Shown here: piece after piece, positions 7,235-13,273 of the stretch
How the letters are laid out: each line of letters opens with the position of its first letter
How positions within the stretch are numbered: the first letter of the stretch is position 1
Position numbers and translations under genes: made by a program
Source: Streptosporangiaceae bacterium
Lineage (GTDB): Bacteria > Actinomycetota > Actinomycetes > Streptosporangiales > Streptosporangiaceae
DNA length: 13,273 nt
NCBI GenBank assembly: GCA_025934635.1
Contig: JAICWX010000240.1
Coordinates: forward strand, 1 to 13,273
Direction: 5' to 3'
The notes under the pieces: generated by a model
Database searches by the model: none
Told to the model about the DNA's origin: nothing
The model's input: only the letters and a program-made list of their open reading frames with translations

Positions 7235-7884
7235 GGGCGGCGCGCGTGGGCGATGTTGACGACCGCGATGGCCGCCCAGATGAGCAAGATGATGAACGCC
7301 TGCCCGCCGAGCGCGGCTGCGTGCGCCACGACCGCGGTGGCGATGACGCCGAGGGTCATGGACCCGAGCGCGATGATCGTCGTCGCCACGTTGCGCGCCC
7401 CGACCTCGGACGGCCGGGCCGGCGGCGGGCCCAGCTGGTACCCGGGCGGCAGCACGGGCCCCGGGTACCCCAGGTAGCCCTGATATCCGGGGTACCCGAC
7501 CGGTGCGGGATGAACTCCGGGAAGGCCCGGCATGGTTCCGGCGGGCATGGTTCCGGCGGGCATGGTTCCGGCGGGCATGGTTCCGGCGGGCATGGTTCCG
7601 GCGGGCGGGGCGCCGGCCGGCAAGGAGGGGGCCCCTGGCTGGGCGCCGGCCGGCGCCGCGGGCCCCTGAAGCCCAGGAGCCGGCCCGGCGGGCCCGGGAG
7701 ATCCTGGCGCCGGCCCGGGAGCCCCGGTGGCGCCGAACTGTCCGAGCCGCGCGTCTATCCGCTTGTCGATTTCCGCCCCGATGCGCTCGACCAGGCCCTC
7801 GGCCACGGCGTCGTCATAGGCCGGACCGAGGTCGGCGTGCGCGGCCACCGAAGCGCGGATCTCGGCCTCGTGGTCGCTGCTCAT
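7231..7884 (-). CDS. Small membrane protein with Pro/Gly/Ala linker, paralogue A
   Basis: I do not recognise a characterised family. The 217-residue protein has three parts. The N-terminal ~50 residues are charged and helical (EIRASVAAHADLGPAYDDAV, then LVERIGAEIDKRIDARL). A long Pro/Gly/Ala-rich linker (~55-150) contains five PAGTM pentapeptides and a Tyr-rich stretch GYPGYQGYLGYPG. The C-terminus has two membrane spans around TIIALGSMTLGVIATAVV and FIILLIWAAIAVVNIA. The ends closely match those of the next gene upstream (7933-8316), so the pair is a tandem duplication. Start ATG 7884 replaces TTG 7911 because a -10-like TATACC lies 8 bases before it and there is no ribosome-binding site, suggesting a leaderless message. 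Its TAG stop overlaps the methyltransferase stop. Confidence 0.85.
   Translation of the reverse strand: MSSDHEAEIRASVAAHADLGPAYDDAVAEGLVERIGAEIDKRIDARLGQFGATGAPGPAPGSPGPAGPAPGLQGPAAPAGAQPGAPSLPAGAPPAGTMPAGTMPAGTMPAGTMPAGTMPGLPGVHPAPVGYPGYQGYLGYPGPVLPPGYQLGPPPARPSEVGARNVATTIIALGSMTLGVIATAVVAHAAALGGQAFIILLIWAAIAVVNIAHARRP
7531..7605 (-). repeat. Five perfect copies of a 15-bp minisatellite
   Basis: The unit CATGGTTCCGGCGGG (plus strand) occurs at 7531-7545, 7546-7560, 7561-7575, 7576-7590 and 7591-7605 without a mismatch. On the coding (minus) strand each copy gives one PAGTM pentapeptide in the linker of paralogue A. Perfect identity, including third codon positions, points to recent expansion by slippage or unequal exchange; a 15-bp unit keeps the frame. 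Confidence 0.97.
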
Positions 7885-10968: not shown

Positions 10969-12024
10969 TCAGGCCAGGGCCGCCGCGCGCGGGATCTCCG
11001 GGGCGGGAGTGAGGGTGCGGCCGACCAGCGGGGACAGGTGGGCGGCGACCGAGGCCAGCTCGCGCAGGTCGGACTCGACCAGGGCCTGCGGGCCGTCGCA
11101 CAGTGCCGACTCCGGGTGCGGGTGGACGTCCACGATGACGCCGTCCGCGCCGACCGCGATCGCGGCCCGGGACAGCGGCAGCACCAGGTCGCGGCGGCCG
11201 CCGGAGTGCGACGGGTCCACGATCACCGGCAGGTGCGACAGCCGCTGCGCGACCGGCACCGCGCTGATGTCGAGGGTGTTCCTGGTGGCCTTCTCGAACG
11301 TCCGGATGCCCCGCTCGCACAGCACGATGTCCAGGTTGCCGCGCTGGGCGATGTACTCGGCGGCCATCAGCCATTCCTCGATGGTGGCGTTCATGCCCCG
11401 CTTGAGCATCACCGGCTTGCCCACCCCGCCGACCGCCTGCAGGAGCGGGAAGTTCTGCATATTGCGCGTGCCGACCTGCAGCATGTCCGCGTAGCTGGCC
11501 ACCAGGTCCACGTCGCCCGGGTCGACCACCTCGGTCACCACCGGCAGGCCGGTCTCCGCCCGCACCTCGGCCAGGATCTTCAGTCCGGCCTCGCCCAGCC
11601 CCTGGAACGCGTACGGCGAGCTGCGCGGCTTGTAGGCGCCGCCGCGCAGCAGCGACGCGCCGGCCGCCCGGGCCATCTGCGCGGACTCCAGCGTCTGCTC
11701 GGCCGTCTCGACGGCGCACGGGCCGGCGATGACGGTCAGCGTGTCCGGCCCGATCGGGACGCCGCCCACCCGGATCACCGAGCGCTCCCGGTGGTGCTCC
11801 CGGCTCACCAGCTTGTACGGCGAGGTGATCCGCACCACGTCGCTGACCCCTGGCATGCCCCGCAGGTTCAGCGTGTCCAGGTGGTCCGTGTCGCCGACCA
11901 GGCCGACGATCGTCCGCGACATGCCGCGGCTGACGAAGGCGTCGCCGCCCGCCGATCGCACCCGGTCGACGACGCCGTCGACTTCCGTTTCGCCGGCCTC
12001 CGCCGTCATCACCACGACCATCAT
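10969..12024 (-). CDS. aroF: 3-deoxy-7-phosphoheptulonate (DAHP) synthase, type I beta
   Basis: This enzyme condenses phosphoenolpyruvate with erythrose 4-phosphate, the first step of the shikimate pathway to Phe, Tyr and Trp. Of 351 residues, ~1-85 form the ferredoxin-like regulatory domain of the beta subclass (TIVGLVGDTDHLDTLNLRGMPGVSDVV is spread over 38-64). The TIM-barrel catalytic domain follows, with IAGPCAVET (Cys103, metal ligand), GGAYKPRSSPYAFQG, LKRGMNATIEEW, LCERGIRTF, VDPSHSGGRRD (His273) and DVHPHPESALCDG (Asp310). The third ligand position, Glu in the enzymes I remember, is Asp299 here. GGAGG (12028-12032) lies 3 bases before ATG 12024 and 6 before ATG 12021, so the second ATG may be the true start. 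The upstream leader peptide and terminator (12039-12159) imply attenuation by aromatic amino acid supply. Confidence 0.96.
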   Translation of the reverse strand: MMVVVMTAEAGETEVDGVVDRVRSAGGDAFVSRGMSRTIVGLVGDTDHLDTLNLRGMPGVSDVVRITSPYKLVSREHHRERSVIRVGGVPIGPDTLTVIAGPCAVETAEQTLESAQMARAAGASLLRGGAYKPRSSPYAFQGLGEAGLKILAEVRAETGLPVVTEVVDPGDVDLVASYADMLQVGTRNMQNFPLLQAVGGVGKPVMLKRGMNATIEEWLMAAEYIAQRGNLDIVLCERGIRTFEKATRNTLDISAVPVAQRLSHLPVIVDPSHSGGRRDLVLPLSRAAIAVGADGVIVDVHPHPESALCDGPQALVESDLRELASVAAHLSPLVGRTLTPAPEIPRAAALA

Positions 12025-12038
12025 CCGCCTCCAGTCAC

Positions 12039-12069
12039 AAAAAAACCCCGAGCCGATGGCCCGGGGTTT
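12039..12069 (-). terminator. Attenuator terminator in the aroF leader
   Basis: On the minus strand AAACCCCG (12069-12062) pairs with CGGGGTTT (12050-12043). An inner GGC/GCC (12060-12058 with 12054-12052) pairs around a 3-base loop with one C-A mismatch. Seven T residues follow (12045-12039). It is a full intrinsic terminator only 15 bases before the aroF start and 16 bases after the leader-peptide stop, so it would block aroF unless it is disrupted. Confidence 0.88.
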
Positions 12070-12084
12070 CGTTAGTCGCTTCCG

Positions 12085-12159
12085 TCAGCGCAAGCTCTGG
12101 CGGGCGACCGTCCGGAACCCGGACCGGTAGCCAAACCAAAACCAGAACTGCTCACGCAT
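12085..12159 (-). CDS. Aromatic-rich leader peptide of aroF (attenuation sensor)
   Basis: This short reading frame lies in the 189 bases between the kinase stop and aroF. From ATG 12159 it encodes 24 residues beginning MREQFWFWFGYRSGF and ends at TGA 12087-12085. Seven of the first 15 residues are aromatic (Phe, Trp, Phe, Trp, Phe, Tyr, Phe), far above chance. The aromatic codons lie immediately before a stable hairpin (12107-12128), and the stop lies just before the intrinsic terminator. Stalling of a ribosome at these codons when Phe-, Trp- or Tyr-tRNA is scarce would alter folding and let transcription reach aroF. ATG 12159 is preferred because TAGCAT lies 7 bases upstream, fitting a leaderless start; in-frame ATG 12168 would add three residues. 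From memory, an aromatic leader peptide attenuator before aroF is known in Corynebacterium glutamicum. Confidence 0.85.
   Translation of the reverse strand: MREQFWFWFGYRSGFRTVARQSLR
12107..12128 (-). promoter_or_regulatory. Leader hairpin within the aroF leader-peptide codons
   Basis: GTCCGG (12124-12119) pairs perfectly with CCGGAC (12115-12110) around a GTT loop, and ACC (12128-12126) pairs with GGT (12109-12107) across one bulged G. The 5' arm spans the Tyr-Arg-Ser-Gly codons, so a ribosome stalled at the aromatic codons would cover it. CCGGGTT (12122-12116) could instead pair with AACCCCGG in the terminator's 5' arm, with one bulge, as an antiterminator. The actual switch needs folding analysis. 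Confidence 0.6.
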
Positions 12160-12206
12160 GTCGGCCATGCTAGCGCATGCCGTCAAGCACAGGAGTATCA
12201 AGCACG
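12160..12206 (-). promoter_or_regulatory. Putative aroF leader promoter region
   Basis: TAGCAT (12172-12167) lies 7 bases before ATG 12159. Upstream, GTGCTTGA occurs twice with a 15-base period (12205-12198 and 12190-12183), giving -35-like TTGATA and TTGACG. Neither is at ideal spacing from TAGCAT; TTGATA-N18-TGCGCT is the alternative. An inverted repeat CATGC-GCTA-GCATG spans 12166-12179. Confidence 0.35.
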
Positions 12207-12213
12207 GGGCGGG

Positions 12214-13273
12214 TCAGAAACCGGTGTCGAGGGTGATGGTGCTGCCGCGCGGGGCCTCGCCGACCGGGCTGAAGTCGAAGACCTTGTTGAAGAAGCCGAA
12301 CCGGTTCACCTTGACCTGGAACCCGGCGTCCTCGAGCAGCTTGGTGGCGTCCTGCACGGACATGCCGATCGGGTTGGGCACGGCGACCAGCTGGGGGCCG
12401 GTGGACACCTGGACGATCACGGTCTGGCCCGGCTGGAACACCCCGCCCGCGGTCGGCTGCTGGCCGGTGATGATGCCCTTGGCCTGCTGGCTGTTGTTGT
12501 CCGGCTGCTGCTGCAGGGTCACCTTGTCCTGGCCGGCCAGCCGCAGGGCGGCGTTGATGTCCATGCCGGTGAAGTCCGGCAGGGGCGGCCCGGCCGCGAC
12601 CATGATCGTGACCGGCTGGGTCTGCGGCCAGCTCGTGCCCGCCCCCGGCCTGGTGCCGGTCACCGTGCCCACCCGGGCGTTCGAGGCGACCTTGACGATG
12701 GTGAAGTTCAGGTGGACGCGCTGCAGCGCGGCCTGGGCGTCGTTCTGCTTCTCGCCCTTCACCGCGGGCACCGCGGAGGTGAACGGCCCGCTCGAGACTT
12801 CGATGGTGACCGCCGCGCCCTTCGACACCCGCCCGGCCGGGCTGGTGCCGACGACCGAGCCCTTGCCCACCGTGTTGCTGTGCACCTGGCGCTGGCCCGC
12901 CTGGACGGCGAAGCCGTCGGCGGTCAGCACGGCGGTGGCCTGGCTGACGCTGACCCCGGAAACCGTAGGTACCTGGGTGAACCGTCCGGAGGTGAACCAC
13001 CAGGTGCCGAGCCCGAGCCCGACGCCGAGCACGATGACCAGCGCGACGATGATCAGCCGGGGGCCGAACAGCCACCGTCCCAGGAACGGCTCGCGCTCGC
13101 CGCCGAAACCGCCCCCCTGATGGCGGCCGCCGTCGGTGTGACGCAGGCCCTCCTCGCGGTCCACCACGAGCGTGTGGGAATCCGCCTGCCCGCCGCCGCT
13201 GAGCTGGCCGCCGCCGTTGAACTGGCCGGTACCGAACTGGCCGGTACCGAACTGGCCGGTACCGAACTGGCCG
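12214..13273 (-). CDS. PASTA-repeat Ser/Thr protein kinase, C-terminal part (N-terminus outside window)
   Basis: The frame is open to the right end of the window, so the GTG at 13167 is not the true start; about 352 residues are visible. In order: a Gly/Gln/Phe linker with GTGQF repeats, a charged segment (VVDREEGLRHTDGG), one membrane span (LIIVALVIVLGVGLGLGTWWF), then four extracellular PASTA repeats beginning VPTVSGVSVSQA, VPAVKGEKQNDA, LPDFTGMDINAA and VPNPIGMSVQDA. The protein ends directly after the fourth repeat. PASTA domains bind peptidoglycan fragments, and this architecture is that of PknB-type kinases controlling cell-wall growth and division. The kinase domain itself would lie beyond base 13273, so kinase identity is inferred. 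A PASTA-only membrane protein is the alternative. It is transcribed towards the aroF leader. Confidence 0.88.
   Translation of the reverse strand, partial: GQFGTGQFGTGQFGTGQFNGGGQLSGGGQADSHTLVVDREEGLRHTDGGRHQGGGFGGEREPFLGRWLFGPRLIIVALVIVLGVGLGLGTWWFTSGRFTQVPTVSGVSVSQATAVLTADGFAVQAGQRQVHSNTVGKGSVVGTSPAGRVSKGAAVTIEVSSGPFTSAVPAVKGEKQNDAQAALQRVHLNFTIVKVASNARVGTVTGTRPGAGTSWPQTQPVTIMVAAGPPLPDFTGMDINAALRLAGQDKVTLQQQPDNNSQQAKGIITGQQPTAGGVFQPGQTVIVQVSTGPQLVAVPNPIGMSVQDATKLLEDAGFQVKVNRFGFFNKVFDFSPVGEAPRGSTITLDTGF
13219..13273 (-). repeat. 15-bp tandem repeat in the kinase linker, three copies plus a partial
   Basis: GAACTGGCCGGTACC (plus strand) occurs perfectly at 13219-13233, 13234-13248 and 13249-13263, and a fourth begins at 13264 and is cut by the window end. 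Each copy codes a GTGQF pentapeptide of the juxtamembrane linker. The true copy number is unknown. Confidence 0.95.

Follow-up and report, generated by a model that had tools for sequence, protein, structure and literature searches.

How is aroF, whose product carries out the first committed step of aromatic synthesis, controlled in a Streptosporangiaceae bacterium in which a short ORF crowded with Phe, Trp and Tyr codons lies directly upstream of it? The window analysed here is a stretch of 13,273 nucleotides (contig JAICWX010000240.1 of assembly GCA_025934635.1), for which a sequence-only reading had proposed a ribosome-mediated attenuator before aroF. All parts of this putative attenuator are on the minus strand together with aroF, in the order TAGCAT box, 24-codon ORF, GC-rich hairpin, seven U's and aroF from upstream to downstream.

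12167..12172, minus strand: -10 box TAGCAT, 7 nt upstream of the leader ATG
12085..12159, minus strand: leader ORF MREQFWFWFGYRSGFRTVARQSLR, 24 codons, probably leaderless (ATG at or near +1), with relatives in 63/80 related loci
12133..12147, minus strand: aromatic run F5 W6 F7 W8 F9 (translation, conservation, codon use)
12129-12127 and 12117-12115, minus strand: further aromatic codons of the same ORF, Y11 and F15, respectively
12093..12143, minus strand: putative protector hairpin (1:2), aromatic codons paired with the later leader part (minimum-energy fold, partner-swap control)
12058..12125, minus strand: predicted antiterminator (2:3), codons 12-15 GGUCCGGGUU (12125-12116) paired with the terminator 5' arm (masked folding, covariation)
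12042..12070, minus strand: terminator hairpin (3:4), arms 12070-12058 and 12054-12042 (compensatory changes, folding)
12039..12045, minus strand: seven-U tract, the first four U's able to pair in the stem (sequence, folding)
12028..12032, minus strand: GGAGG Shine-Dalgarno sequence of aroF, outside the hairpin (sequence, folding)
10969..12024, minus strand: aroF, class I-beta 3-deoxy-7-phosphoheptulonate (DAHP) synthase (profile match)

The assignment of the downstream gene to DAHP synthase in the earlier reading is borne out by an NCBIfam profile search, in which the product matches TIGR01361 with 387.7 bits against a cut-off of 267.75 and has no match to TIGR00034 (class I-alpha). The lowest E-value belongs to the BagF/FevY model, although this match is under the cut-off of that model. 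Annotation is lacking at the attenuator site, as had been stated: Rfam gives no match there up to E = 1, and NCBIfam gives no family for the 27- and 38-residue forms of the leader peptide, very short peptides being hard to match. The gene upstream of the leader encodes a PASTA-domain protein (window 12214-13273) and ends at 12214. Its relatives are found in 7/80 related loci (L001, L002, L004, L006, L041, L070 and L076) within the flanks covered. Short tandem coding repeats occur in this gene at 13220-13273 (QFGTG) and elsewhere in the window at about 7503-7610 (MPAGT or AWFRR depending on the strand).

Conservation, start and codon use of the aromatic leader

The leader has been traced in two samples of related loci. 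For the first sample, genome contigs were scanned with the AroF protein, and the best 80 of 553 loci were taken. A dense aromatic run followed by a stop codon before the hairpin was found in 63/80 loci, a number that counts loci, as all leader counts here are of loci or genomes with no tree behind them, and not independent events. The remaining 17 loci comprise 14 without a leader, two at contig ends (L032 and L055) and L076, and all of these are excluded from the set of 64 leaders (63 loci and the window) used below. In L076 an aromatic ORF (MQQLTYWFGHLPG..., with TANNNT 6 nt upstream) has no stop codon before the hairpin and extends over 289 codons, out of frame past the aroF start. For L034, L045 and L047, a peptide string was supplied to locate the leader. 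Carriers include Actinomadura, Nonomuraea, Streptosporangium, Microbispora, Nocardiopsis, Herbidospora, Nocardioides, one Frankiaceae MAG and one Pseudonocardiales MAG; the closest relative of the window among the matches listed is a Streptosporangiaceae MAG with 90% AroF identity. In the second sample, 344 genomes of the same class yielded an AroF match in 113, and 108 upstream regions were read, including two cut by contig ends (L138 and L152) and some species already present in the first sample. At least 64/108 regions carry a leader, 60 by rule and four by eye, the reading by eye having covered 19 of the 48 regions without a rule-based leader. Aromatic ORFs lacking a -10 box in L143, L149, L156, L172, L175 and L187 were not counted as leaders, and several of them are probably out-of-frame readings of a neighbouring gene. 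The aromatic run is thus conserved in orthologous leaders of both samples, a check that the sequence-only reading had suggested.

Phe, Trp and Tyr are all present in 53/64 leaders, while the order and number of the aromatic residues vary freely (FWFW, FWRFY, YFFWF, FSFTY). Codon use sets these leaders apart from the genes that they precede. Phe is encoded by UUU in 77/130 leader codons versus 0/362 codons in the 64 downstream aroF genes, and Tyr by UAU in 62/89 leader codons versus 5/295 (Fisher p 4e-55 and 1e-43, respectively, both values treating related sequences as independent). The leader is therefore not an ordinary coding sequence of such GC-rich genomes. Judged from conservation and codon use, its presence before aroF is more than chance. 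The rare UUU and UAU codons might sharpen stalling via slow wobble decoding; alternatively, the skew might arise because the RNA itself requires U.

The frame with clustered aromatic codons had originally been given as 24-27 codons. The 27-codon version from ATG 12168 was rejected, and the start at ATG 12159, giving 24 codons, fits better, because the -10 box TAGCAT (12172-12167) overlaps the former ATG. A TANNNT box lies 6-9 nt upstream of the start in 64/64 leaders. In both locus samples, leader starts were chosen with a preference for such a box, so that more weight is to be given to the control, in which TANNNT is found at 6-8 nt for only 1/410 other ATG/GTG in the same regions. Matches to the Shine-Dalgarno sequence (5 of 6 bases) are found ahead of 1/64 leaders versus 41/64 aroF genes. 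A -10-to-start spacing of 6-9 nt is that of leaderless actinobacterial transcripts. From this spacing, the leader ORF is probably leaderless, transcription starting from the ATG or next to it. Leaderless leader peptides have been documented in Streptomyces lividans, where several leaders are of this kind and the -10 motif of the genome is TAnnnT, according to the parts of that study drawn on here (PMC8079986). Upstream of the -10 box, TGCGC is conserved (12177-12173 in the window and the corresponding position in relatives; T in 94% and the second G in 91% of leaders), with no clear -35 seen in the leaders. These bases might represent a variant of an extended -10 element or a site for a protein.

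Alternative RNA structures and the modelled ribosome

The RNA from 12175 to 12025 has a folding energy of -74.4 kcal/mol, shuffled versions averaging -58.6 (z -3.64), and none of 200 shuffles is as stable; in the minimum-energy fold a hairpin covers the aromatic codons, so the stable hairpin that had been claimed over these codons holds. Partner swapping among the leaders agrees with this protector hairpin, for which own pairing averages -12.19 versus -7.57 kcal/mol after the swap and is in the best 5% in 29/64.

Downstream of the stop codon, the terminator with a seven-T tail described in the earlier reading is recovered at 12070-12042 as a 13-bp stem with a 3-nt loop (-22.0 kcal/mol), with the qualification that the first four U's of the run (12045-12039) are paired inside the stem. 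A consensus terminator scanner does not list this hairpin of the window, perhaps because the U's are absorbed into the stem. In the alignment, two-sided changes with pairing kept occur at 7/13 pairs of the terminator stem. A T-run of five or more near the hairpin is found in only 10/64 leaders and one of three or fewer in 38/64, so that the seven U's of the window are not typical; the script picked a wrong hairpin in L002 and L041, and their true tails leave these numbers unchanged. The stretch between terminator and aroF in L002 is largely filled by repeat units of about 17 bases (CATGAGCACACGCTTTT-like). Sequestration of the aroF Shine-Dalgarno sequence by the terminator hairpin was considered and rejected, the GGAGG lying outside the hairpin.

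The predicted antiterminator joins codons 12-15 to the terminator 5' arm and encloses an inner helix, in the loop region of which the stop codon is located. In the outer helix, 90% of cells are paired, and covariation is 0.264 versus 0.136 in shuffles and 0.006-0.080 when the helix is slid; two-sided cells number 45 versus 20 in shuffles. Both-sided changes are confined to 3/7 pairs (shuffles 2.4), pair types show no excess (8 versus 8.5 shuffled), and the pairs 44:128, 45:127 and 50:122 are unpaired in 11, 17 and 9 rows, respectively. Moreover, 44/45 two-sided cells sit in the column pairs 44:128 and 46:126, where changes follow large clades, and the covariation therefore represents few independent events. 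RNAalifold on alignment A1 recovers the terminator only. Segments 2 and 3 were also exchanged between leaders: own partners pair with -16.75 kcal/mol, partners from other peptide clusters with -10.32 and partners within the cluster with -16.94, a swap within a cluster costing nothing. Own pairing is in the best 5% in 39/64 leaders, with the trend seen in 12/14 clusters (not in those of L006 and L022). For the inner helix the effect is weaker (own -8.18 versus -5.36 kcal/mol; 19/64 in the best 5%), and this helix was assessed by partner swap only, because MAFFT columns misalign it across clades. Compensatory changes, another check proposed at the outset, are thus found in the terminator and on fewer columns in the antiterminator; the alignment shows covariation of the former and, more weakly, of the latter.

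A ribosome on the leader has been modelled by masked folding, in which the transcript ends with the terminator 5' arm and the score is the chance that the leader holds this arm. The main mask is +12 nt with pairing across the ribosome forbidden; the mask is assumed, and the energies are equilibrium values. Over the 64 leaders, an A-site placed two to four codons short of the last aromatic codon gives an antiterminator probability of 0.91-0.92, which drops to 0.84 one codon short and to 0.47 at that codon itself; past this codon it falls from 0.37 to near 0, and at the stop codon it is 0.0. Changing the mask from 10 to 16 nt shifts the drop by at most about two codons. In the window (mask +12), the score is 0.96 at F5-W8, 0.54 at F9, 0.59 at Y11 and 0.82 at F15. 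Folding with and without the masked ribosome, as had been recommended, accordingly favours the antiterminator for stalls before the last aromatic codon, within several bounds. With the downstream part shuffled, the score is 0.45 versus 0.88 for real leaders, and only 34/64 beat all 20 shuffles, since the GC-rich terminator arm finds pairing partners in many sequences. With no ribosome on the leader, the antiterminator averages 0.48, and the default state is therefore not clear-cut. If sequences on either side of the ribosome may pair with each other, the score climbs back to 0.82-0.87 at ten to thirteen codons beyond the run, and at the stop codon it is 0.65. The same masking on 22 class I-alpha leaders (see below) gives no peak at the aromatic codons, with 0.03-0.05 from three codons before the last to the last, so the test is not one that every leader passes.

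The sequence-only reading had also suggested that all three end products are read together. This stands insofar as codons for all three are present in most leaders, whereas most Tyr codons coincide with the switch point of the model or come after it. For the first 14 residues of the 64 leaders, scores above 0.7 are obtained for 110/129 Phe, 50/64 Trp and 21/89 Tyr codons. Phe and Trp are therefore the predicted main signals, and Tyr is predicted to be the weakest.

Proposed control of aroF and its rivals

Taken with its conserved aromatic runs, compensatory changes and masked folding, the locus very probably represents a ribosome-mediated transcription attenuator of the trp/phe type that controls aroF, in keeping with the interpretation first given to it; its operation in the cell, from the leaderless start through stalling and termination to the response to individual amino acids, would be as follows. 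Transcription would start at the leader ATG or adjoining it. When charged Phe- or Trp-tRNA is scarce, the ribosome would stall in the FWFWF run and cover the 5' arm of the protector hairpin, which would leave the codons directly after the run to pair with the terminator 5' arm, and aroF would be transcribed. A ribosome that reaches the stop codon would disrupt the antiterminator, allowing the terminator to form and transcription to end. The leader ORF is short and dense in codons for the amino acids of the pathway. A conserved hairpin lies between the leader and aroF, with a U-tract in the window and a poor one in most relatives. Computation predicts an antiterminator that is incompatible with the terminator and becomes available when the ribosome stalls.

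The scarcity of long U-tracts bears on how the signal would be put out. The ORF might serve as a ribosome sensor with its output via Rho-dependent termination, RNA stability or re-initiation at aroF, and a long U-tract is indeed missing in most relatives; actinobacterial leaders without typical terminators have been described for cys operons and leuA, in the parts of the two studies drawn on here (PMC1262725, PMC8079986). Such an output is nevertheless unlikely: the window has seven U's, compensatory changes have kept the hairpin downstream of the stop codon, and the 5' arm of this hairpin covaries with the leader. Direct sequestration of the ribosome binding site is unlikely as well because the GGAGG of aroF is outside the hairpin.

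The codons might instead be conserved for the sake of the peptide, acting in trans or as an arrest peptide. The aromatic run is conserved at the residue level, and a function in trans has been reported, in the portion of the literature consulted, for the trp leader peptide peTrpL of Sinorhizobium. The free change in order and number of the aromatic residues noted above speaks against a peptide function, as does the strong synonymous skew, which such a function does not need, and we regard it as highly improbable. Still less credence is given to a protein or small molecule that binds the leader RNA in a riboswitch-like or TRAP-like manner, the ORF being incidental. A folded, conserved RNA with alternative structures would suit such a binder, yet no Rfam family matches the site, and the aromatic-rich ORF, the -10 spacing and the rare codons would be left unexplained. 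Attenuation by a ribosome on the leader, in contrast, would give the first committed step of aromatic synthesis a direct end-product sensor in a large group of actinomycetes that includes many makers of natural products. Deletion or recoding of the leader is predicted to deregulate aroF, which would be useful for making aromatic natural products, and with over 100 leader sequences the family lends itself to asking how a single leader balances three amino acids.

Leaders at other genes and comparison with known systems

Aromatic leaders also occur before the class I-alpha gene. A scan of 197 genomes gave 36 class I-alpha matches. Of the 30 loci read, 22 carry an aromatic leader with a leaderless-type start (L219, L221-L224, L226-L237 and L239-L243; for example, MNIGVRAYWRFIVAPGGASDAASG and MITVRRYPYFAQAPGGAGRVMR) and a hairpin downstream of its stop codon; the leader of L241 was located by a peptide string and does not satisfy the rule by which the others were accepted. 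Of these 30 genomes, 23 also have the beta gene in the sample; eight of them bear the leader on the beta gene only, 15 on the alpha gene only and none on both, although these genomes probably fall into few lineages, and the numbers are no count of events. The genome of L001, outside this sample, has a beta leader together with a leaderless aromatic ORF before its alpha gene (L195:422-801). This ORF begins with MSRWYWRF, has TANNNT 7 nt upstream and, with no stop codon in the stretch, runs past the alpha gene start. It contains a perfect 15-bp inverted repeat.

Separate leaderless Trp-only leaders are found near trpE-like genes in 5/6 genomes (L199, L200, L202, L203 and L204; 5/12 loci; for example, MRTSQDLQWWRRR and MRTAASRWWWRR), all of these genes being under the TIGR00564 cut-off. 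By the -10 rule, prephenate dehydratase has no leader in six loci. A covariance-model search of six genomes places the best hit beside the AroF match in all three genomes for which both positions are available (G001, G004 and G005). Of the weaker hits, six were retrieved (L111-L116) and four of these inspected by eye (L111, L112, L113 and L115); the four inspected show no aromatic leader to the eye and look like chance matches or ordinary terminators. It is conceivable, though we lean somewhat against it, that a combined Phe/Trp(/Tyr) sensor is placed, by lineage, on whichever of two non-orthologous DAHP synthases sets the entry to the shikimate pathway, class I-beta in Streptosporangiales-like genomes and class I-alpha in others. 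Rare UUU and UAU would sharpen its stalling, codon order would rank Phe and Trp over Tyr, and it would stand beside the separate Trp-only trp leaders.

The kind of mechanism is already known, and the leader family before class I-beta aroF appears undescribed, no description of it having turned up in searches of an open-access library. The logic of stall, antiterminator and terminator is the same as in E. coli pheL/pheA and trpL, which respond to one amino acid each, have a Shine-Dalgarno start and attend other genes. The original study of the aroR leader before aroF of Corynebacterium glutamicum, the nearest known case and the precedent named in the sequence-only reading, is reportedly that of Neshat et al. 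in 2014. As described in the excerpts drawn on here, aroR contains Phe-Tyr-Phe, its stalling raises transcription under Phe limitation and Tyr is without effect (PMC11802643; the precedent is also given in PMC4046766). Like aroR, the present leader is an attenuator leader with aromatic codons upstream of a DAHP synthase gene; unlike aroR, for which that description mentions no Trp, it has Trp codons. This precedent is real but concerns a different class of enzyme: aroR attends a class I-alpha and the present leader a class I-beta DAHP synthase, because C. glutamicum scores for TIGR00034 and has no TIGR01361 match.

In S. lividans, eight leaders have been described, for Ala, Ile, Leu, Met, Thr and Trp, and the words DAHP and aroF are absent from the main text of that paper (PMC8079986). 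A survey of actinobacteria from 2005 reports, in the part drawn on here, no conserved RNA structures upstream of Phe and Tyr operons (PMC1262725). It describes trp attenuators of Corynebacterium and Streptomyces with a leader peptide and with an antiterminator and a terminator that have a complementary core in common (Seliverstov et al., 2005; PMC1262725). By that account, the present leader resembles them in having a leader peptide and a predicted antiterminator and terminator, whereas theirs carry Trp codons and lie upstream of trp genes.
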